A stretch of DNA of 64,000 nucleotides. Origin: Fodinibius saliphilus (lineage in GTDB: Bacteria > Bacteroidota > Rhodothermia > Balneolales > Balneolaceae). A program made the translations under genes and the position numbers. Below the pieces are notes generated by a model, which saw only the letters and a list, made by a program, of their open reading frames with translations, was not told the DNA's origin and did no database searches. How positions within the stretch are numbered: the stretch's first letter is position 1; each line of letters opens with the position of its first letter. Below, piece by piece: positions 46,260 through 62,776 of this stretch. Location of the stretch: positions 1,364,001 to 1,428,000 of the forward strand of contig NZ_VAWF01000001.1 in assembly GCF_005869845.1 (NCBI RefSeq), given 5' to 3'.

Positions 46260-47639
46260 CTAAGCCTTCCAGATATGAATTTCATTTTGAGGTTCTATCC
46301 CCTTCATCGCATGACGTGAATCTATAATACAATTACTCCACTTTCCTAACTCATGGTAATTAATATCGGAGTGATCGGTTGAAATAATAACAGCATCAAA
46401 GGCTGAAATATTTTCTTTTGACCAGCCAACGCTTTTTACACCCGTCCACTCTGCATGTTCCCGGGTCGGTTTAATTTCGGGAATATGAGGATCGTAGTAC
46501 GACACCTCTGCCCCATATTCTTTCAACAGATCCATAATCTTAAAGGTCGGAGATTCCCGCATATCATCAACATCCGGCTTATAAGCCAAGCCAAGAACCA
46601 AAACATTACTTCCATTCATCGCTTTCTTATGAGCATTCAAAGCTTTAAGTGTTTGGTCCACCACATATTGAGGCATAGCAGTGTTAATCTCACCGGCTAA
46701 CTCAATAAAGCGCGTATTCTGCTCGTACTCCCGTGCTTTCCAAGTTAGGTAAAAAGGATCAATTGGTATACAATGCCCGCCCAGACCCGGACCGGGAACA
46801 AACTTCATAAATCCAAAGGGCTTGGTATCAGCTGCATCCAATACCTCATGCACATCAATATCCATATCACTGAATATAACCTTCAACTCATTCACAAGAG
46901 CAATATTTACTGCTCTAAACACATTTTCTGTAATCTTTACGGCTTCTGCTGTTTTAGTATCTGATACCGGTACTGTTTCAACGATTGACGTATTATAGAG
47001 CGCACATGCCAGCTCAATGGCCTCTTCTCCATGACCTCCCACCACTTTGGGAATTTTTGAGGTATTAAAATCTACATTTCCCGGGTCTTCTCTTTCCGGG
47101 CTGTAAGCTACATAAAAATCCTTACCGGCCGTAAGACCTGACTTGGACTCCAGAATAGGAATAATCAGTTCCTCTGTGGTACCGGGATAGGTTGTGGATT
47201 CTAAAATGACCAGCTGGCCTTCTCTCAAATGTTCACCCACGGTCAAACACGTTTTTTCCACGTACTGCATATCCGGTTCCCGGTGATGATCTAAAGGAGT
47301 AGGCACACATAACATGAGAGCATCCGCATCAGGAATACGACTGAAGTCTGTAGTCGCATCAGCCTTTTCACTATCAGCCAGCTTTTGCATCATATCCTTT
47401 CCAAGATGCTTGATATAGGGTTTACCCTGCTCAATGCAGTCAATTTTATCGGTATCAATATCAAAGCCCAACACCGGCATGTCGTTGCTATGGAAGGTCC
47501 ACATCAGGGGAAGTCCCACATATCCGAGTCCCACAATACCGACCGTGTAGTCTCGTGTTTCTATTTTTCCCAGTAGCTCTTGCAAACGATCTGTTTTAAC
47601 TTCTTCTTGCTGAATGGTATCAGGTGTGTCTGTAGTCAT
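46260..47639 (-). CDS. UDP-N-acetylhexosamine 6-dehydrogenase (WbpA/WecC-type)
   Basis: 459 aa. An N-terminal Rossmann domain with TVGIVGLGYVGLPLMWTF near residue 32, the conserved LESTTYPGTTEE loop, AYSPEREDPGNVDF as in WbpA proteins, the catalytic cysteine in GPGLGGHCIPIDPFYLTWKA near residue 285, and a C-terminal UDP-binding domain (LVLGLAYKPDVDDMRESP). It oxidises a UDP-HexNAc to the uronic acid with two NAD+. With WecB two genes away the product could be UDP-ManNAcA, although the SPEREDPGN motif favours the GlcNAc-type WbpA group. TATTTTTG at 47710-47717 is a candidate promoter. Confidence 0.92.
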   Translation of the reverse strand: MTTDTPDTIQQEEVKTDRLQELLGKIETRDYTVGIVGLGYVGLPLMWTFHSNDMPVLGFDIDTDKIDCIEQGKPYIKHLGKDMMQKLADSEKADATTDFSRIPDADALMLCVPTPLDHHREPDMQYVEKTCLTVGEHLREGQLVILESTTYPGTTEELIIPILESKSGLTAGKDFYVAYSPEREDPGNVDFNTSKIPKVVGGHGEEAIELACALYNTSIVETVPVSDTKTAEAVKITENVFRAVNIALVNELKVIFSDMDIDVHEVLDAADTKPFGFMKFVPGPGLGGHCIPIDPFYLTWKAREYEQNTRFIELAGEINTAMPQYVVDQTLKALNAHKKAMNGSNVLVLGLAYKPDVDDMRESPTFKIMDLLKEYGAEVSYYDPHIPEIKPTREHAEWTGVKSVGWSKENISAFDAVIISTDHSDINYHELGKWSNCIIDSRHAMKGIEPQNEIHIWKA

Positions 47640-48430: not shown

Positions 48431-49534
48431 TTAGTTAGAAGCTTCCAAAATAGCTTTCACAATTCGCTTCGCCGTATTCCCATCCCAATAGAGCGGCTTA
48501 GGCAGCTCCTTATTCCCAGCTACCCCATTCTGCAGATGTTTCTCAATATGATCCAAAATCACCTCCGGATCGGTACCTACCAGCGTATTCGTGCCCTCGG
48601 TAATGGTAATAGGACGCTCGGTATTTTCGCGGGCCGTCAGGCAAGGAACGCCCAGCGCTGTTGTCTCTTCCTGAATACCGCCGGAATCAGTCACCACCAA
48701 CCGGGCATTACTCATTAAGTTTACATTATCCAGGTAACCCACCGGCTCAAGCAGGTGCAAGTCATCAATGGACTGCAGTCGCTCCCAAAGGCCAAACTTC
48801 TCAGCATTGTTTTTTGAGCGCGGGTGCACCGGCCAGACCATCGGCAGTTCTTGTGAGGTCTCCTCTAAGATATCCACAAAGTTGCTTAATGTTTCTTCCT
48901 GATCTACATTTGAGGGACGGTGCAGGGTAACCAGCACATACTCTTTCTCCCTAATACCCAAATTTCCAAGGATGGTTGATTCATCAGACCGCTTACGCAT
49001 GTTAAAGAGCGTGTCTATCATAATGTTGCCCACAAAGCGAATCTTTTCTTCCCCAATGCCTTCCTTGATCAGATTCATATTGCCATCGATAGAGGGCGTC
49101 AGCAAAAGATCGGCAATACTATCGGTAAGCACGCGGTTGATCTCCTCCGGCATATCACGATCATAGCTCCGCAAACCAGCTTCGACGTGGGCAACTTTTA
49201 TTCCCATTTTATTGGCAACAATGGTACACGCCATGGTGGGATTTACATCCCCGACCACAACCACCCAGTCGGGCTGCTCATCCTGTAATACTTTTTCAAA
49301 CTCGGTCATCACTTTGGCTGTTTGCTCGGCATGACTGCCACTGCCAACGCCCAAATGGAAGTCCGGTTTGGGAATGCCCAGTTCGTCAAAGAATATTTTA
49401 GACATTTCGTAGTCATAATGCTGACCGGTATGTAGCAGTTTCGCTTCTATCTCTTGATGATTTTTATACTCTTCTAGCAGCGGTGCCACTTTCATAAAGT
49501 TTGGTCTAGCGCTGGCTACGTTAATAATTTTCAT
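48431..49534 (-). CDS. wecB: UDP-N-acetylglucosamine 2-epimerase (non-hydrolysing)
   Basis: 367 aa, family-typical GT-B-like fold. It converts UDP-GlcNAc to UDP-ManNAc. Signatures: LLHTGQHYDYEMSKIFFDEL, VVVGDVNPTMACTIVA, HVEAGLRSYDRDMPEEINR (catalytic acid residues), VTLHRPSNVD, and TDSGGIQEETTALGVPCL with REN..R at the UDP site. It is 14 nt after the WecG/TagA-type gene in one operon. With WecB and a WecG-type transferase present, ManNAc or ManNAcA is probably the second residue of the repeat unit. Confidence 0.95.
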   Translation of the reverse strand: MKIINVASARPNFMKVAPLLEEYKNHQEIEAKLLHTGQHYDYEMSKIFFDELGIPKPDFHLGVGSGSHAEQTAKVMTEFEKVLQDEQPDWVVVVGDVNPTMACTIVANKMGIKVAHVEAGLRSYDRDMPEEINRVLTDSIADLLLTPSIDGNMNLIKEGIGEEKIRFVGNIMIDTLFNMRKRSDESTILGNLGIREKEYVLVTLHRPSNVDQEETLSNFVDILEETSQELPMVWPVHPRSKNNAEKFGLWERLQSIDDLHLLEPVGYLDNVNLMSNARLVVTDSGGIQEETTALGVPCLTARENTERPITITEGTNTLVGTDPEVILDHIEKHLQNGVAGNKELPKPLYWDGNTAKRIVKAILEASN

Positions 49535-49548
49535 TAATTAATATTCTT

Positions 49549-50262
49549 TTAAAGCTTATTGGTAACTAATTTATAAAAAAAGGTTATGAGACTGGTCTGT
49601 CTGAAAATCCTTCTCGGTTCTTTAAAAAGTCGATAAGACCATTCAAGTCCCATTTTCCTAAGTATTTTAGGAGCTCTTTCTTTCCTCCCCGAATAAATAT
49701 CAAAACTCCCACCTAATCCCATGTATAAAGCAGGATGTTTTCGTTTCATTTTCTCCATTACAAATTCTTGCTTAGGACTCCCCATAGCTACAAAAACAAT
49801 GTCAGGCTCTTTAGTATTAATATCCTCTATCAGTTTCTCTTGTTCCTGACTATCCATGTATCCATTGCAATACCCCACAATATCAATGCCTCGGTACTCT
49901 TCTTTTAGCCGGTCAACCGTTTGCTCTATTACCTCTGGTTTACCTCCAACCAAGTAAAACGTTTTATCATTGTAGTGTCTCTGGATGATATCAAGCCAAA
50001 ATTCTGCCCCGGGTATTTTCTCAGAATTATGCCCTTTCCGTTTTAAAGCCCAAACAGCCCCAATTCCATCTGGATAACCAATATTGTTATTTACTAATAC
50101 TTTTAGTTCACGATCTTCCTTTACCAACTTTTCAGCATTAAGGGCTACCAGAATATTACCGAAGTTCCCATTTTCTAGATGATCTAAAAAATGGTCTTTG
50201 CTATCAAAAGGGTAGATTTTATATCCATTCAATAATACTTCTTCAACCATCCACATATTCAT
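49549..50262 (-). CDS. WecG/TagA/CpsF-family glycosyltransferase
   Basis: 237 aa. GT26 signatures: VALNAEKLVKEDRE, YPDGIGAVWALKRKG, VFVAMGSPKQEFVMEKM and the C-terminal GLGGSFDIYSGRKERAP, GLEWSYRLFKEPRR. These enzymes add ManNAc or ManNAcA to lipid-PP-GlcNAc on the cytoplasmic face, a natural fit with WecB and the wecA-like gene below. The start used overlaps the upstream gene by 20 nt. A later in-frame ATG at 50250 would shorten the overlap. Confidence 0.93.
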   Translation of the reverse strand: MNMWMVEEVLLNGYKIYPFDSKDHFLDHLENGNFGNILVALNAEKLVKEDRELKVLVNNNIGYPDGIGAVWALKRKGHNSEKIPGAEFWLDIIQRHYNDKTFYLVGGKPEVIEQTVDRLKEEYRGIDIVGYCNGYMDSQEQEKLIEDINTKEPDIVFVAMGSPKQEFVMEKMKRKHPALYMGLGGSFDIYSGRKERAPKILRKMGLEWSYRLFKEPRRIFRQTSLITFFYKLVTNKL

Positions 50263-51433
50263 TTTTTAGATAATATGATAAAGCACAGAACATCCACGCC
50301 TGACTCCATCTCATGTAGGGTATCTTATTTTTGAACAATCTCTTAATCTGATAATAAAAATATCCATCCTCATCCTGCATATTTTCAATAGTCCAATTGC
50401 AAACTCGTTCGCCTAATTCTTTATGTTCCTCAAATCGTTCTGTTTTGACCAAAGTAATAAGAAACTGGGCCGGTGAATGTATATCAACCGGATATACCTC
50501 ATTATGATAATACTTTGGTGTCCCATCTTCTAAGAAGAAATTTTCCAAATAATATTGAAATCCCTTTTTTAAATTATCCTCAAAAGATCTATCTTCCGTA
50601 TATTTCTGATAATCACACAATGCCTCTAGATTAAAACCGGTGTGAAAACTATCAATCCAATCTTGAATAGGCAATTCCCCGTAATACCACGAACCATCTT
50701 CATTTTGGGCATTACAGCAAGCCATCACTGATTGTTTTGCTGCGTGTTTATAAGTTTCTTCGTTGGTTATAGAATAAACTCTTGCTAACAGCTTACTGCC
50801 CAATAGTGAGGCATTATATACGGTATTATTTCCAAACTTTGGAGCATAAGAAAATAAAAATCCTTGTTTCTTTTCGGTTCTGCTTAAATCATTGATAACA
50901 AACTCTGCCGAAGTTACAGCAGTATTCTTAATTTTCTCTTTATCCAAAATGGAATAGGCATCTAACAAACCATAAGTTGCAAAAGTAGTGGCCACTACAT
51001 TGGGCGTTTCGGCGGGAAAGTACAATCCACCACGAGCCTGCCAATCAAAATTATATCCCCAGCAAGATCCAGAATAACCTTCAGACTGTAACTGTATTAA
51101 CAGATTAGCAAGGTGATTTATCTTCTCTATTATTTCATCTTGTGTGCCAAACCTTACATTCCCGTATAATGCAATTTGGTATAAGTTGCAATAACCTGTC
51201 AAAAAAAGCCCTAACCCTTTGGGATTGTATTCTTTAGGCACATTTACTAATGGACGAAGATTGATGGGATTACGTTTAAAAAACTGTATCCATGCCAGAC
51301 GAGCGAACTTGGATTTTTTTAACGGCGTAGCCTGAAATATTTTTGAGTTTAACCCATCATAAGGATCCCATCCTTTAAATTCTTCATTTTCACAGTAATT
51401 TTTAACTTTTTTGAAAGAACTAATAACATCCAT
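50243..51433 (-). CDS. Alpha-helical toroid-like protein of unknown function
   Basis: 396 aa, no signal peptide, no membrane helix. It resembles proteins found in other exopolysaccharide clusters that begin with a 'GWDPYDGLNS' motif (GWDPYDGLNSKIFQATPL at residues 19-36). Repeating helical hairpins with Gly/Tyr/Trp turns (GYSGSCWGYNFDWQARGG, DEDGYFYYQIKRL, IPYMRWSQAWMFCAL) suggest an (alpha/alpha)6 toroid, the fold of many uronate-processing and glycan enzymes. The conserved WSQAW, HNE and WGYNFDWQ residues could line a sugar site. No specific activity is claimed. It sits between the sulfotransferase and the WecG-type gene. Confidence 0.6.
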   Translation of the reverse strand: MDVISSFKKVKNYCENEEFKGWDPYDGLNSKIFQATPLKKSKFARLAWIQFFKRNPINLRPLVNVPKEYNPKGLGLFLTGYCNLYQIALYGNVRFGTQDEIIEKINHLANLLIQLQSEGYSGSCWGYNFDWQARGGLYFPAETPNVVATTFATYGLLDAYSILDKEKIKNTAVTSAEFVINDLSRTEKKQGFLFSYAPKFGNNTVYNASLLGSKLLARVYSITNEETYKHAAKQSVMACCNAQNEDGSWYYGELPIQDWIDSFHTGFNLEALCDYQKYTEDRSFEDNLKKGFQYYLENFFLEDGTPKYYHNEVYPVDIHSPAQFLITLVKTERFEEHKELGERVCNWTIENMQDEDGYFYYQIKRLFKNKIPYMRWSQAWMFCALSYYLKNEYVDG

Positions 51434-53633: not shown

Positions 53634-54839
53634 TTACCTCTTTAATCTTAGCCAAATTAAAAAATAAACTAGTATAATTATATTATTTACCTGTGCACTA
53701 ACTAAAGCATGACCAGCAATTACTCCATGGAGTAAGTAAAAAGAAAGGCCAATCACTAGCACTAAGTCTTGCAAAGATCTTTTTATCAAAAAGTGTTTAA
53801 ATATTTTCCAGAGAAAGAATAGAGGTATTCCAAATGCGGTAAGACAAAAAAGCATACCAAACTTTCCGTAAATGTCAATCAAATCACTTTCTATAATTAA
53901 GAAGTTCCTTTGTGAACCAAATAAGTGTTCAGTTAATGAAAAGTTTTGAATTTGTTCAATACCAAAAGCATAATTTCTAAATCCAAAATTACCACTTGCT
54001 AATTCGGTAATTCGACTTAGAGTATAAGTCAACCCAAGGTCTTGTAAATATTGAACTATATACCAAACTGCTCCTATAAATAGTGCAGTAATTAAAAAAA
54101 TACCTGCTTTGAAACTTGCACTCTTTACCTCTTTTGCAAAGATACTATATCCCATTATTACTATAAAACTTACAGGTATACCTATAAAAAGCGCTTTCGT
54201 ATTAATAAGAAAAGCAGAAAATAAAAAAAGAAGTGATATAACAATTAACTTTGATACTTTGAAACTTTGAAAGCTAATGTTGTAATAAAGAAAAAAACAA
54301 AACGCTATTAATAAGATTAGTCCAGTATCATTTGCTGCCCCATATAAACCAGAAGAAGTGTATAGTTGATGAGAGTAACTTTGGATTCCTAATCCTACAT
54401 AAGTAAAGAAAATAATACCAATAATCACTATAACCCCATAATAATACCCTAAAGTCCATATTTCATTTGTATGGAAATATCTTTTGTATTTATGAATATA
54501 AATAAGACCACCTAATCCAAGATATGGGTAAACTACCTTTAACAAACCGCTAATTTTTGAGATTAAGCTAGTTTGTAATCCTGCAGACAAGCCCAAAAAA
54601 ACTGCACTTAAAACACAAAGCATACCAAGATAAAGGGGGATCAGTGAACTTGATTTGCTTTTTAAACACCAAAGCAAGAAAACAGGTAAGACCACACCTC
54701 CTCGAAAAAGAACCCCAGGTGTTAAAGCACTATAATTCAAAAACTCTGTAAAATATCCCGTACCTAAATCAACAACTGATCCAGCTAAGATAAGTATATA
54801 TGTAAATATTAAGTAAAGTCTTGCCTTATTTTCCTTCAC
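53634..54839 (-). CDS. O-antigen polymerase/ligase-like membrane protein (Wzy candidate)
   Basis: 401 aa, about 11 membrane helices with one larger periplasmic loop (residues 280-330, TLSRITELASGNFGFRNYAF to FLIIESDLIDIYGKFGMLF). The sequence is poorly conserved but has the layout of Wzy/WaaL proteins: short N-terminus, helices in pairs, a loop with Arg and Tyr residues. It is the only such protein in the cluster, so it is the most likely polymerase for the repeat units flipped by Wzx. Confidence 0.8.
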   Translation of the reverse strand: MKENKARLYLIFTYILILAGSVVDLGTGYFTEFLNYSALTPGVLFRGGVVLPVFLLWCLKSKSSSLIPLYLGMLCVLSAVFLGLSAGLQTSLISKISGLLKVVYPYLGLGGLIYIHKYKRYFHTNEIWTLGYYYGVIVIIGIIFFTYVGLGIQSYSHQLYTSSGLYGAANDTGLILLIAFCFFLYYNISFQSFKVSKLIVISLLFLFSAFLINTKALFIGIPVSFIVIMGYSIFAKEVKSASFKAGIFLITALFIGAVWYIVQYLQDLGLTYTLSRITELASGNFGFRNYAFGIEQIQNFSLTEHLFGSQRNFLIIESDLIDIYGKFGMLFCLTAFGIPLFFLWKIFKHFLIKRSLQDLVLVIGLSFYLLHGVIAGHALVSAQVNNIIILVYFLIWLRLKR

Positions 54840-54926: not shown

Positions 54927-55766
54927 TTAAGATATTTCTTCTCTTATTATTGTCGGATGTTCTTCTTTCTGAATTTCCTTAAATTTATATTCATTAAAAT
55001 TTGGTTTTTCATATTGTCTATCTCCGAGTTCGTAAGCCTCAGCTAATCTCCCAGATCTATCAAATTTATAATGAAAATAATTTCCTAAATGATATGAATT
55101 AGTGTTCTCTTCATAAATCTTTTTCTTTAACCCTTCAAAAAAAACTATTCTTCTAGTAGGTATAAAAAACGTATCTTCTAAAATTCTATGAGGCATATTG
55201 CTACGCTTCCTATGTTCATAGTCTTCAGTATACCTGCTAAATGATTCAAAAAATGTTAGTTCATTGGCTGTCAATAAATTATATTCTTCATATTTATCAA
55301 TATTGTTGAAATTCTCAATCATATTATCACTATAAAATTGATCACAATCATAAGTAGTCACCCAATTACCAACCTTCCATAAACCAGACACCGTAGCCAT
55401 ATAATTAAAGGTTAACGCCTGATTAACCCTGTAGTTTGAATATTGGTACAAACTCAACAATATATACCAATATGGATAAATGAACTTATTAAAATGCTCA
55501 TCATTACTTAAAATTTTCAACAAGGTTTGTGGATATTTTAAAAAACTCACCCTTATTGGATCTACTAATTTATAATTTTCATTTTGCCTCACCTCTTGTT
55601 TTATCCTTTGATAAGTACCATCCGTACTATGTTTTGGTTTATCCATATCAAAACAACCATCACATAAAATTGCCTCATCCGGATTTAGTTTTTTTAATTG
55701 TTTTAAGGATAAATCAATCCATTCTTTTTCGTTCCAAAAACAGGCAAAAACTATTAGCTTACTCAT
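54927..55766 (-). CDS. GT2-like protein of unknown specificity
   Basis: 279 aa. The start LIVFACFWNEKEWIDLSLKQL and the segment DEAILCDGCFDMDKPKHSTD (a nucleotide-site-like acidic pair) point to a GT-A-type fold. A DCDQF motif (VTTYDCDQFYSDNMIENF) near residue 147 can serve as a DxD metal site. No membrane helix. Aromatic-rich throughout. I do not recognise a named family. A glycosyltransferase adding one residue of the repeat unit is the simplest reading. Confidence 0.6.
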   Translation of the reverse strand: MSKLIVFACFWNEKEWIDLSLKQLKKLNPDEAILCDGCFDMDKPKHSTDGTYQRIKQEVRQNENYKLVDPIRVSFLKYPQTLLKILSNDEHFNKFIYPYWYILLSLYQYSNYRVNQALTFNYMATVSGLWKVGNWVTTYDCDQFYSDNMIENFNNIDKYEEYNLLTANELTFFESFSRYTEDYEHRKRSNMPHRILEDTFFIPTRRIVFFEGLKKKIYEENTNSYHLGNYFHYKFDRSGRLAEAYELGDRQYEKPNFNEYKFKEIQKEEHPTIIREEIS

Positions 55767-55843: not shown

Positions 55844-56746
55844 CTAAATGTATCTTGGGCTAACTTTCATATACACATTTTTCAAACTCTTTCTGGGGAT
55901 TTCCTTTAATGCTGAACCTAAAACACTCCTTAAACCTACTTCATTTAGATAAATCTTATATCTCTTTAACCAGTTTGCCCAATTCTTTTTTAAATCATTG
56001 AACACTTTTTGTTTACCAGGATATTCATTTTCAAATATCTGATATAGTGTTTCTTTGTCATTACTATAAAGATCTGGAGATGCTTCATTTCTAATTACAT
56101 AATCAGCCCCAAATAATATAATTCCACGTATTACATCTCTCTTAATGTAATATTGATGCCAAATATTAGAAAGAAGTTTGAACTGCATTCTTGAACTTAA
56201 AAAGCTAAAACCAACTCTATCAGTTTGCAAAAGCTTTAAAGCTCTATGATAACCAAATCTAAAAGCTTGATTCTTAGATGGATTAGGGCTATGTACAACC
56301 AAAGGTGCGGGTTCATTATGAGTATAAAATTTTTTCCCGGGGACTTTAGGACTTGGATCAACAAACAAATTCTCATCGTTTTTAGTCCAAGTGGCACGAT
56401 TACTAAAGATGTGCAATCCATCAATTATTGAATTAGAAGCCCAATCTTTTACCCCCAGTAATGCATGATCTAAATGTTTATAATTTTGGAAAGTACCAAC
56501 AATCTTGGATAGTGACTGTTCACTCATAAAAACCATGTCAGCATCAAGCTTTACAAACAGATCGTAATTTTCTGCCTCGTCCATAAACTTTCTATAAAGC
56601 GTTTCATGGGCTTTTTTATTGGGTAGATTTTTATAAACAACATGATCCCAATTTGTAAAAACCTGATCTTGCAGGGAATCTTTACACTGTCTAAATTCAT
56701 TTTCACCAGAAAATAATGTCCCTACTAACACTCTCATATCAGTCAA
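55844..56746 (-). CDS. GT2-like glycosyltransferase of unknown specificity
   Basis: 300 aa. RVLVGTLFSGENEFRQCKDS opens a GT-A domain, and LFVKLDADMVFMSEQSLSKI near residue 65 supplies the DAD metal motif. The conserved 'QVFTNWDHVV' resembles the GT2 segment Q.....W..V. The start ATG overlaps the deacetylase stop by 4 nt (ATGA), so translation is coupled. The C-terminal third is basic and lacks membrane helices. Confidence 0.7.
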   Translation of the reverse strand: MTDMRVLVGTLFSGENEFRQCKDSLQDQVFTNWDHVVYKNLPNKKAHETLYRKFMDEAENYDLFVKLDADMVFMSEQSLSKIVGTFQNYKHLDHALLGVKDWASNSIIDGLHIFSNRATWTKNDENLFVDPSPKVPGKKFYTHNEPAPLVVHSPNPSKNQAFRFGYHRALKLLQTDRVGFSFLSSRMQFKLLSNIWHQYYIKRDVIRGIILFGADYVIRNEASPDLYSNDKETLYQIFENEYPGKQKVFNDLKKNWANWLKRYKIYLNEVGLRSVLGSALKEIPRKSLKNVYMKVSPRYI

Positions 56747-57585
56747 TTTCCTAACTGTTTTAATAGGTTCTTAATTTCAATTCGGGGTAGGGCCATTAAG
56801 TTCGGTCTTCTTTTTATAAGTCTCTTTTTGGTGGTAAAGCCATACTTAAATCCAGAAAGCCTAGCCAAATTCCTTACGACAAAGTTATTTGCACCATAGG
56901 GATAAGAAAAGTGGTAAATCTTGTGACCCAGTTTTTCCTCAATTCTTTTTTTTGATTTGCGCATCTCATAATAGACCGTCCACATTGATTGTTCTGTTAA
57001 TACTGGATGAGTGATAGTATGTGCTCCAATCGTTATTAAAGGGTTTTCATCAAGCCTAACAATCTCATCCCAGGATAGAAATCTTTCTGTTTGACAGGAT
57101 CTTCTTTTGTAATTGTTTAGTTCTGCCAACTCATTCATGAACCTTTCTTTTTCCTCAAAAGTACTTTTCTTTAGAGGTTCACGTAACCGGTTATATACTT
57201 GTACTTTACGCTCCTCATTTTTTAATGACACTTCAGAAATGTCTCTTAATCTAAGACTATCAAACTTTTCAATTGCTTGGGCCAACTCAATTTCATAAGG
57301 ATACGCCTCTCTATCAATGAAACCAGTTGTAATAAATATAATTGCTTTTGCATTATATTTCTCTAGCAGTGGTAAAGCCTCTAGGTTATTTCTATAGCCA
57401 TCATCAAAGGTTATAAGTTTCCCTTTATCATTTTCGATATCAAAATTATTTACAGTATTTTGATAATCAGACCTGTGTTTTAAATATTTTTCTAACTCTT
57501 GAGAAGTAACACTATATAACTTTTGCGGACCCAAAAAAATATCCAAATCATTTATTATATGATGGAACATAGAAACTTCTATCAT
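56743..57585 (-). CDS. Polysaccharide deacetylase (CE4/NodB-type)
   Basis: 280 aa from ATG at 57583-57585. A longer frame from TTG 57642 exists, but it overlaps the upstream sulfotransferase by 32 nt and its first 19 residues look non-conserved. CE4 motifs are intact: LITFDDGYRNN (catalytic Asp plus metal Asp), GAHTITHPVLT (two metal His) and FSYPYGANN. There is no signal peptide, so it acts in the cytoplasm or on a lipid-linked intermediate. Deacetylation of a HexNAc would free an amine. The adjacent gene is a sulfotransferase and the GT2 gene below is coupled by ATGA. Confidence 0.88.
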   Translation of the reverse strand: MIEVSMFHHIINDLDIFLGPQKLYSVTSQELEKYLKHRSDYQNTVNNFDIENDKGKLITFDDGYRNNLEALPLLEKYNAKAIIFITTGFIDREAYPYEIELAQAIEKFDSLRLRDISEVSLKNEERKVQVYNRLREPLKKSTFEEKERFMNELAELNNYKRRSCQTERFLSWDEIVRLDENPLITIGAHTITHPVLTEQSMWTVYYEMRKSKKRIEEKLGHKIYHFSYPYGANNFVVRNLARLSGFKYGFTTKKRLIKRRPNLMALPRIEIKNLLKQLGN

Positions 57586-57610
57586 TACACATTCTTTTAA
57601 CGGCTGTTGC

Positions 57611-58465
57611 TCATTTTCGCCAATGAACAAGATCCCAACCAATTAACTTTTCTAAGCGTTGAATTTCTGGCTCAATCATCTCGAGTAGTTCAGAACGTAA
57701 TTCAGGTGAAATACCTTTTTCATATTCATCTTTATCCTTTAAAATTTTTCCCAGATATGGTGTCTGCTCTAATTTTCTAGCAACAATATCTAAATTCAAT
57801 TTGCGTAATCCCCCACCAATAAAAGAATCTCTTAAACTAGTCTTTAAATGTAGCCATCCTTGGTTTATAGGTGTCTGTTTACCAGAAGCTATATTAACCT
57901 TTTTGTCCAAGAAACTTGGTTTAAAGTTTTTATCAACTTCTAAAAAAGAAAGTATGGACTTTAAATAATTTTCTGGGTCTTTTTTAAGATCTCGAAAATC
58001 TAAAAAAAGAAATTGATCCTCATTAAAATATTGAAGGTATCTTTCAATATGTTCTGCGTATAGCCCCGGTTCAATCCAAGAGGAATACAAGTCATAATTT
58101 TCTAATACTTCACTGAATTCAAAAGCAATTTTTTGCTTTTTTTTCTCATGCCAATAATGAGAAAAAGCGCGATCAATTGGATGCCGCAAACAAACAATAA
58201 ACTTCGCTTTAGGATAATCATCAGCTATTCGACGAGGTGCCCAAGGTGATCTAATGTAGGATGGAGTAGGGTCTATTACTATTTTTTTTGAATTTTGTTT
58301 TTGAAAAAATGAAGCATACCACTCTTTGCCATTATTAAAATACATATCATAATAATGAATAGAATCATTATTAGGTACTAAAACCTCATTATGTTCTTTT
58401 AAACATTTATAAACCCATGTTGTGGCAGATTTCTGAGGACCTATATGAAAAACATCAATTTCCAT
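57611..58465 (-). CDS. PAPS-dependent sulfotransferase (copy B)
   Basis: 284 aa. The 5'-phosphosulfate loop HIGPQKSATTWVYKCLKEH (residues 7-25) has the 'IGPQK..TT' form seen in heparan N-sulfotransferase domains. The 3'-phosphate site is KFIVCLRHPIDRAFSHYWHE near residue 90. A further conserved YLQYFNEDQFLFLDFRDLKK segment follows. It differs clearly from copy A, which has GMPRSGTK. Immediately downstream is the CE4 deacetylase, upstream the Wzx gene overlaps by 11 nt. Confidence 0.88.
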   Translation of the reverse strand: MEIDVFHIGPQKSATTWVYKCLKEHNEVLVPNNDSIHYYDMYFNNGKEWYASFFQKQNSKKIVIDPTPSYIRSPWAPRRIADDYPKAKFIVCLRHPIDRAFSHYWHEKKKQKIAFEFSEVLENYDLYSSWIEPGLYAEHIERYLQYFNEDQFLFLDFRDLKKDPENYLKSILSFLEVDKNFKPSFLDKKVNIASGKQTPINQGWLHLKTSLRDSFIGGGLRKLNLDIVARKLEQTPYLGKILKDKDEYEKGISPELRSELLEMIEPEIQRLEKLIGWDLVHWRK

Positions 58466-59894
58466 TTTGGAATGTTAAATATTTATTAAAATTACTGATT
58501 AACCTTCTTAGAAAATCTCTCTCTGAGTATAACAAAGAAACAAGAATTAATAATAATACAGAAGTTGTAATAACAATATTGAAAATCATAAAACCCCTAA
58601 ACAACAAAATAACTACTGCAAAAAAAGTATGTATTGTTAAACTTATAGAATAAGTTTTAACTCCATCTTTATATAGGATAAGAAAAGAAGTTATTATATT
58701 GGTAACCCCAAAAGATACCAACATTGCAACTGCTGCCCCATCTGACCCTAAAATAGGAATGAGCCAATAATTTAATCCAATGTTAATGATAAGAACTAAT
58801 ATAGTTGTATAAAGAGTTAAGTTTGAATAACCAGCGATATTAAGATACCCCCCTGACATTCCAAAACTTGTTGTCAAAAGGTATGTGGAACACAAAATCA
58901 TCAAAGTCGAGTATGAATTCCCATATTCACCAAATAATTCTAATATTTGATATCCGAATAATGTAAAGACAATTGCTCCACAAAATGAGCAAGATAATGT
59001 CAAAATTCTACTATAGTGATACTCCTCATGAATTGATGCAAAATCTTGATTGCTCAAGAAATTACCTATTCTGGGTGTTAAAATTTTATTATTAATACCG
59101 TGTGCTAAATATAGGATAAATGCTAACTTCGAAGCTATTACGTATTCAGCAACTTGTGTACTAGTAGCAAGAATACCCATCATTAAAATATCCGCATACT
59201 TAACTGTTTTGCTAATACCAGTAGTAATAGCTAATTGCCCAGCATATTTAAAATCCCAAAGTGTTAAAACAGACCCTTTATTAACTCTAAAGAGATTTAA
59301 AGGAGTCATTATATATCGAACAGTTAATGGCAAAAATTCACTAAGCAAAATAGCTCCAACAACTACATAAATATTGGGCCAAATCAGCCAGCAAATACAT
59401 AAAAAACATACTTTCGCAATGGCCGGAAGCATTTCATAGTATAATATTGATTCAGCAATGAGCTGTCGAGCTCTAAACCACGCATCATAAATACCATGCA
59501 GAGCTTTAAGCGGAATTAATAAAGTCAACCCAACTATCCAAAAGCTATTTTCTAAGCCGCTCCATATAAATGCTACGCCAACCACGATCAAACTAACCAA
59601 ACTACTAGACATGAGGCTATATTTTAGCAGCTTCCCTGCTAAACTCTCTCCCTCCAAACTTTCGGGTGGTGCATCAATCCTTGAAAGACGATACATAGCA
59701 ATATGTTGAAAGCCTGCTGATCCTAAAATCAGCAAAATACTTATCAGAGAAAAGGCGAATTCATAATTCCCATATGCTTCCTTTGTAAGTACCTGATTAA
59801 GAATCCAAACACTAACAAAAGCTGAAACTTTTGTTACAATTGTAGAAATAAAGGCTGTACTTGACGAGCGGAAGTAGATCCTAAATTTACTCAC
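58455..59894 (-). CDS. Oligosaccharide flippase (Wzx candidate)
   Basis: 479 aa, 12-14 membrane helices, MATE/MVF-type flippase fold. It starts FRIYFRSSSTAFISTIVTKV, with the family-typical AYGNYEFAFSLISIL near residue 45 and ALHGIYDAWFRARQLIAES near 140. It moves the undecaprenyl-linked repeat unit to the periplasm. Only one flippase is present. It follows the epimerase gene by 8 nt and overlaps sulfotransferase B by 11 nt. Confidence 0.92.
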   Translation of the reverse strand: MSKFRIYFRSSSTAFISTIVTKVSAFVSVWILNQVLTKEAYGNYEFAFSLISILLILGSAGFQHIAMYRLSRIDAPPESLEGESLAGKLLKYSLMSSSLVSLIVVGVAFIWSGLENSFWIVGLTLLIPLKALHGIYDAWFRARQLIAESILYYEMLPAIAKVCFLCICWLIWPNIYVVVGAILLSEFLPLTVRYIMTPLNLFRVNKGSVLTLWDFKYAGQLAITTGISKTVKYADILMMGILATSTQVAEYVIASKLAFILYLAHGINNKILTPRIGNFLSNQDFASIHEEYHYSRILTLSCSFCGAIVFTLFGYQILELFGEYGNSYSTLMILCSTYLLTTSFGMSGGYLNIAGYSNLTLYTTILVLIINIGLNYWLIPILGSDGAAVAMLVSFGVTNIITSFLILYKDGVKTYSISLTIHTFFAVVILLFRGFMIFNIVITTSVLLLILVSLLYSERDFLRRLISNFNKYLTFQNGN

Positions 59895-62443: not shown

Positions 62444-62776
62444 TCAGTTCAAGCTCTTCATGATCTTGTTCAATTGGTGAATTAAATCATCATATTCTTC
62501 AATCAGCTTATCAACTATTTGTTCATCAAAATATTTTACTTTCCCGCCATACAGCAGATGACTTTGTGTTTCGAAGGCCGAACCGCGAGCGACAATATAA
62601 AAATTTCGCTTATCTTTTTTAGTTTTTCTTCCAAAAGCTTCGGATATATTTGATGAAATACTATTTGCCGATCGTCTTATCTGCGAGATTAATCCGTAGT
62701 CTTCAGATCGAGGCAACGATTTTGTTAATTCAAAAACCTGAAAGGACAATTCGATAGCCTTCTTCCATACTTCCAT
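62444..62776 (-). CDS. S23-type four-helix-bundle protein
   Basis: 110 aa. The 23S rRNA intervening-sequence (S23/IVP) family signature is clear: MEVWKKAIELSFQVFELTKS, YGLISQIRRSANSISSNISE, AFGRKTKKDKRNFYIVARG and SAFETQSHLLYGG. These small basic bundles occur in rRNA inserts, at free sites in Bacteroidota genomes, and as Avd accessory proteins of diversity-generating retroelements. No reverse transcriptase is near. Three tandem ATGGAAG repeats (ATG ending at 62768, 62776 and 62784) mark the start. Only the middle one is in frame with the family start. Confidence 0.92.
   Translation of the reverse strand: MEVWKKAIELSFQVFELTKSLPRSEDYGLISQIRRSANSISSNISEAFGRKTKKDKRNFYIVARGSAFETQSHLLYGGKVKYFDEQIVDKLIEEYDDLIHQLNKIMKSLN

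Follow-up and report, generated by a model that had tools for sequence, protein, structure and literature searches.

Do a polysaccharide deacetylase and a sulfotransferase encoded side by side in Fodinibius saliphilus form a split version of the animal N-deacetylase/N-sulfotransferase (NDST)? The question is raised by a polysaccharide gene cluster in a 64,000-nucleotide stretch of DNA (hereafter the window; contig NZ_VAWF01000001.1 of assembly GCF_005869845.1, positions 1,364,001 to 1,428,000 of the forward strand), for which an original prediction had proposed such a split enzyme. A split animal NDST by descent is not supported by the comparisons reported here. It is probable that each gene encodes a separate cytoplasmic enzyme and that both tailor a single surface polysaccharide of the Wzx/Wzy type. 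The computed basis of this reading consists of the protein families, the predicted fold, the gene order, the lack of hydrophobic N-termini and an adenylyl sulfate (APS) kinase gene in the genome; the residue roles, which are taken from CE4 enzymes generally, are inferred, as are the substrate, the sequence in which the enzymes act and the hydroxyl acceptor.

The sulfotransferase, termed ST-B (57611–58465, minus strand, 284 residues), contains the loop GPQKSATT and is assigned by Pfam (PF00685 at 2e-19 and PF13469 at 3e-16) and by its predicted model to the enzymes that use 3'-phosphoadenosine 5'-phosphosulfate (PAPS) and share the heparan-sulfotransferase fold of NDST and the 3-O-sulfotransferases (3-OSTs). 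On the minus strand ST-B comes first and the deacetylase (56743–57585, minus strand) begins 25 nucleotides after its stop codon. The most plausible start of the deacetylase is the ATG at 57585, which gives 280 residues; a longer open reading frame starting at a TTG would overlap ST-B. The deacetylase matches the CE4 family PF01522 (4e-22, 78.9 bits against a cut-off of 23.1) and retains H8, D61, D62, H189 and H193, all five invariant across an alignment of six deacetylases. The best 19-residue Kyte-Doolittle means within residues 1–40 are 0.93 and 0.01 for the two proteins, too low on this scale for either N-terminus to be a signal peptide or to span a membrane, no signal-peptide program having been run; the deacetylase is predicted to be cytoplasmic. 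The original prediction had described these features correctly, namely the two reading frames and their adjacency, the metal residues D61, D62, H189 and H193, the absence of signal peptides, and the loops HIGPQKSATTW in ST-B and GMPRSGTK in ST-A, the second sulfotransferase of the cluster.

The case against common descent with NDST is clearest for the deacetylase. PF01522 is its only Pfam match. PgaB is its highest NCBIfam match (1e-14, 53.8 bits, far under the cut-off of 321.9); PgaB and IcaB are the nearest named families, both with scores below their cut-offs. Its better matches in the PDB are CE4 and PgaB-type chains, and neither an NDST nor an Agd3 entry is found among its 15 PDB matches at E up to 1. 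A search of the F. saliphilus genome with PF12062 gave no match, and the same search was also silent on its controls. The predicted model of the deacetylase has a pLDDT of 36. By contrast with this CE4 profile, the NDST deacetylase is described as homologous to Agd3 in PMC10864358, and heparosan-specific deacetylases are placed with CE18 and not with CE4 in PMC13353177. The PgaB active-site residues His55, Asp114 and Asp115, as given in PMC7112194, would correspond to H8, D61 and D62 of the window protein. Judged by its sequence, the deacetylase is on the PgaB-like CE4 side and is not an NDST deacetylase by descent, although it differs from the PgaB/IcaB-type enzymes in having no hydrophobic N-terminus and in lying within a Wzx/Wzy-type cluster.

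ST-B itself is about equally near to N- and O-specific enzymes by fold, phmmer and profile scores. The structure comparison with NDST that had been proposed earlier was made with a predicted model built from six sequences (pLDDT 71; residues 189–220 and 237–239 below 50). Its top match is 3rnl, a bacterial sulfotransferase from Alicyclobacillus acidocaldarius (Z 24.1), followed by the 3-OSTs 1t8t, 3bd9 and 3uan (Z 21.8–22.9) and NDST1 structures 1nst, 8ccy and 8cd0 (Z 21.1–22.4), so that the fold is tied between NDST and 3-OST; the next sulfotransferase fold class reaches a Z of 14.7 or lower. Foldseek E-values rank the three as 3rnl, NDST and 3-OST. A phmmer search with ST-B gave 79.6 bits for 3rnl, 71.3 for NDST1 and 64.7 for 3-OST-3, and a ten-sequence profile that included ST-B gave 211, 142 and 146, respectively. 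According to the predicted model, then, ST-B is a heparan-type (3-OST/NDST fold) sulfotransferase. The resemblance to NDST noted earlier is real at the level of the phmmer score, but it is not specific, as 3rnl scores higher, 3-OST-3 comes close and the fold is no closer to NDST. In a quick 84-row tree, NDST1 groups with 3-OST-3 and 3-OST-5 (SH-aLRT 92, under the 95 mark) and ST-B falls among other bacterial rows, not as a direct neighbour of 3rnl; this tree cannot decide the placement of ST-B relative to NDST.

The loop motif, which had been put forward as a sign of N-specificity, was rejected on residue counts. These were made in NDST1 numbering over 81 rows (80 bacterial sequences including ST-B, plus 3rnl, with NDST1 and the 3-OSTs left out), and both the residue alignment and the tree stop before the Lys833/Arg835/Tyr837 region at the PAPS site. 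Exact GPQK occurs in one of the 80 distinct sulfotransferases collected, ST-B itself, and GPQR in two; GAQK is present in 23 of the 80, so a single substitution separates the ST-B loop from the one that is most frequent in the set. Among the NDST-like states of ST-B, Q613 (33/81 rows), T618 (62/81), D708 (44/81) and H716 (40/81) are common, and P612 (6/81) is the sole rare one. Lys614 and His716, to which catalytic roles in NDST1 are given in PMC3733922, correspond to K12 and H106 of ST-B. Equivalents of these two residues are found in 71 and 40 of the 81 rows and are therefore not diagnostic of NDST. Since NDST-like residues are common in the bacterial rows, the argument from the loop carries little weight. 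At positions 704, 644 and 647 ST-B has Arg, His and Asp, which is the state of 3-OST-3 and 3-OST-5; these two enzymes differ from ST-B at 716, 618 and 642, where they carry Gln, Arg and Glu, respectively.

It is at the last of these positions, one key place, that ST-B departs from its own family in the alignment. Glu642 of NDST1, which we take to be the general base, has a Glu equivalent in 71 of the 81 rows as well as in both 3-OSTs, and the ST-B residue is Ser35. Taken together, ST-B and its neighbour share with NDST1 the fold, the GPQK loop, the Lys614 and His716 equivalents and a deacetylase alongside, whereas they differ from it in being bacterial and cytoplasmic, in being encoded by two genes, in the PgaB-like CE4 nature of the deacetylase, and in the Ser at 642 and the Arg at 704.

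The pairing is also not conserved among the relatives examined. No close relative of ST-B was found in 128 genomes of the order and an even draw of 395 genomes of the phylum; the best matches there are 28–32% identical near full length and at most 42% over shorter stretches, and the best identity among the tree rows is 34%. One of 45 other sulfotransferase regions has a CE4 gene no more than about 6 kb away, a range that was shorter where a contig ended; the deacetylase model behind this count overlooked a divergent subtype (seen in L329 and L330). An adjacent deacetylase accompanies 1 of 114 distinct sulfotransferases in 55 sulfotransferase-centred regions (the window not among them), a count to which a model for the divergent subtype had been added; this addition can only favour adjacency, because the two proteins from which it was built adjoin a sulfotransferase. 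In the same regions a deacetylase is the immediate neighbour at 1 of 221 places, and at a distance of two or three genes it turns up at 2 of 391 (p 1). When the 150 matches listed for each family are compared, no pair but that of the window lies within 2 kb, which is an undercount because the sulfotransferase of a congeneric tandem described below (genome G014) is not among the matches listed. Three loci on other genome contigs match ST-B, none with a CE4 gene by the deacetylase model used; viral contigs gave no match for ST-B or the deacetylase alone and one for the deacetylase alignment. For five of the 34 records matched by the deacetylase, all five on plasmids, the listed neighbours include no gene named sulfotransferase, in tables that are incomplete and in which some neighbours are hypothetical proteins. 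On pSymB of Sinorhizobium meliloti (L060:1157-6828), an exopolysaccharide cluster contains a relative of ST-B and, at a distance of about 4 kb from it, a PIG-L de-N-acetylase.

The surrounding genes indicate what the two enzymes may act on. From the flippase-like gene through WecB all cluster genes are on the minus strand, with short gaps or overlaps. The flippase-like gene (MatE; 58455–59894, minus strand), a presumed Wzx, overlaps ST-B by 11 nucleotides. The deacetylase is followed by two putative glycosyltransferases, one at 55844–56746 (minus strand; overlapping the deacetylase by 4 nucleotides and without a significant Pfam match) and one at 54927–55766 (minus strand; without a Pfam match), and by a hydrophobic protein that may be a Wzy-like polymerase (53634–54839, minus strand; without a Pfam match). 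Next in order are a group 1 glycosyltransferase (PF00534; 52416–53615, minus strand), ST-A (PF13469; 51476–52423, minus strand) and a protein that weakly resembles GH88, pectate-lyase and cyclase proteins and probably folds as an alpha/alpha barrel (50243–51433). The series continues with a WecG/TagA glycosyltransferase (PF03808; 49549–50262, minus strand), for which an N-acetylmannosamine(uronic acid) donor is likely, and WecB, a non-hydrolysing UDP-GlcNAc 2-epimerase (TIGR00236, 340 bits against a cut-off of 210; 48431–49534, minus strand). Beyond a 791-nucleotide gap are a putative WecC-like UDP-sugar dehydrogenase (46260–47639, minus strand), named by reading its sequence and with congeneric matches, and a WecA/MraY-type glycosyl-1-phosphate transferase (PF00953; 44914–46155, minus strand). 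The GC content is 0.29–0.36 for the genes between 49549 and 59894 and 0.41–0.48 for the surrounding WecB, WecC, WecA and epimerase genes; the low-GC cassette looks exchangeable. A small protein at 62444–62776 presumably belongs to the four-helix-bundle (23S rRNA intervening sequence) family, which is often found near polysaccharide loci.

Given the WecA, WecB and WecG types present, the acceptor is likely to be a lipid-linked repeat that contains N-acetylated hexosamines, and the repeat unit would probably be built on GlcNAc-PP-undecaprenol with a ManNAc-derived residue. The PgaB-like CE4 enzyme would strip the N-acetyl group from one hexosamine of this repeat, with a metal held by D62, H189 and H193, D61 serving as the base and H8 probably as the acid. 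Before flipping, ST-B would transfer sulfuryl from PAPS onto that repeat, where a hydroxyl is a likelier target than the freed amine. An APS kinase gene is present at G000:C1:1435292, about 7 kb beyond the end of the window, and PAPS should therefore be available.

Several observations weigh against two separate tailoring enzymes of this kind. NDST1 scores slightly above 3-OST-3 in the phmmer search. A clade of ST-B and NDST1 is not rejected by the AU test (p 0.493), and the tree constrained to this clade is better by 0.22 log units. With the sulfotransferase segment of NDST1 as the query, ST-B is the only match in its own genome and the sixth best place among 244 genomes of the class; no CE4 gene was seen, with the model that overlooked the divergent subtype, in the regions around the five better places, and some of these regions are short (4.8 kb for L195, 8 kb for L139). 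According to PMC13353177, heparosan was converted to product by three of the four CE4 enzymes tested on it, so a CE4 enzyme could chemically perform the first step of NDST. Three congeners have a sulfotransferase gene directly ahead of a deacetylase gene on a shared strand, in tandems made of other components.

A rival reading is a two-gene N-deacetylase/N-sulfotransferase assembled without any link to the animal enzyme, in which the CE4 enzyme would free the amine of GlcNAc or ManNAc(A) on the lipid-linked repeat and ST-B would sulfate it. We consider this unlikely, although the adjacency and shared direction of the two genes, the position of ST-B among the more NDST-like bacterial sulfotransferases with K12 and H106 in place, and the capacity of CE4 enzymes to deacetylate heparosan speak for it; an N-sulfated exopolymer is, moreover, on record for Pontiella in PMC7356697. 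The Ser at the 642 equivalent and the rarity of an adjacent deacetylase among sulfotransferases argue against it. The tandems of other genomes point both ways. In G014 (L211:4977-6700, same genus) the gap is 8 nucleotides and the sulfotransferase is 24% identical to ST-B; in G010 and G013 (same genus) a PF13469 sulfotransferase is followed after 6 nucleotides by a divergent PF01522 protein; and in G512 (L203:7948-9992, same class) the genes, again with the sulfotransferase leading on a common strand, overlap by 4 nucleotides. The congeneric tandems are, however, assembled from sulfotransferases of other subfamilies, non-orthologous to ST-B, and from differing deacetylase subtypes. In G325 (L233:558-3161) a deacetylase is flanked on both sides by sulfotransferase-like genes on its own strand, of which one scores below the Pfam cut-offs.

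Viewed from the deacetylases, a sulfotransferase is not a significantly frequent neighbour. Forty-eight glycan-type deacetylases were taken from 80 regions around places (mostly lower-scoring) among the 150 listed and from 16 loci, 93 of these 96 being long enough; the window and places in G015, G091, G516 and G034 were left out, and the G010 tandem fell outside because its region ended at the sulfotransferase. With the extended deacetylase model, a sulfotransferase is the next gene at 5 of 94 places and lies further off at 2 of 109 (p 0.25), so that chance is possible. The five include both sides of the L306 deacetylase and one weak 'sulfotransferase' (L273) recognized by our own model. A formyltransferase is the next gene at 11 of 94 places, compared with 3 of 109 at a distance of two or three genes (p 0.023, again with the extended model); an earlier version without the divergent subtype gave 11/94 against 1/105 (p 0.0017), and the weaker value is used. 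In these Fisher tests each neighbouring gene counts as an independent observation. Overall, 11 of the 48 glycan-cluster deacetylases adjoin a formyltransferase, which suggests deacetylation followed by N-formylation in glycan clusters and favours N-sulfation by the window pair to the extent that an enzyme able to recap a freed amine is placed beside a deacetylase. Such neighbours are at L209, L223, L226, L228, L251, L253, L258, L262, L268, L274 and L302; the formyltransferase is confirmed by Pfam at L209, L223, L226, L228, L251 and L329 (the L253 gene) and by our own model at the others. In another count, made with the model that missed the divergent subtype and including the window and regions picked for a nearby sulfotransferase, glycan-type deacetylases have an adjacent sulfotransferase in 4/32 and 1/22 cases and an adjacent formyltransferase in 4/32 and 9/22; for other deacetylases both values are 0/78.

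A somewhat less probable, related possibility is a convergent route in which the exchangeable WecG-WecB locus of the genus couples deacetylases to interchangeable amine-capping partners, some congeners having a formyltransferase and others a sulfotransferase, and the polysaccharide would carry N-formyl or N-sulfo amino sugars. In G010 and G013 the genes for WecG, a formyltransferase, a deacetylase and WecB follow in this order, and WecB and WecG are about 92% and 69% identical, respectively, to those of the window. Because this locus pairs deacetylases with potential recapping enzymes, a sulfotransferase might be the amine-capping partner here, and this is the strongest argument in favour of N-sulfation. 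The loci are L330:662-6081 in G010 and L253:1368-4883 and L329:609-4011 in G013. They have a second deacetylase between the formyltransferase and WecB, of the DUF3473 type by Pfam in G013, and the tandem of a sulfotransferase and a divergent PF01522 deacetylase lies upstream of the WecG-WecB genes in both genomes.

That ST-B is catalytically altered or inactive, perhaps a drifting gene in the exchangeable cassette, is improbable: the loss of the Glu at the 642 equivalent to Ser35, the low GC content and the want of a close relative would fit, but the open reading frame is intact, Lys12 of the PAPS loop, Arg94, Ser102 and His106 are kept, and Asp34, beside the missing Glu, could stand in for it.

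In a literature search for a bacterial N-deacetylase/N-sulfotransferase pair, part of the matches, judged by title and abstract, concern engineered or heparin enzymes. The authors of PMC7356697 wrote in 2020 that they knew of no prokaryotic sulfotransferases with activity on glycosaminoglycans, and the enzymes behind the N-sulfated exopolymer of the marine bacterium Pontiella were not identified; with such a polymer recorded and its enzymes missing, the question of N-sulfation is worth an assay. Active NDST expression is described as a key bottleneck for heparin-like polymers in bacteria in PMC13353177. Should ST-B prove to be an ordinary O-sulfotransferase, the two genes would be a routine set for tailoring a polysaccharide. 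If the convergent pair is real, it would represent a glycosaminoglycan-like N-sulfation route unrelated by descent to NDST, and a soluble N-sulfating bacterial pair would answer the gap in prokaryotic sulfotransferases and help the production of heparin-like polymers in bacteria.

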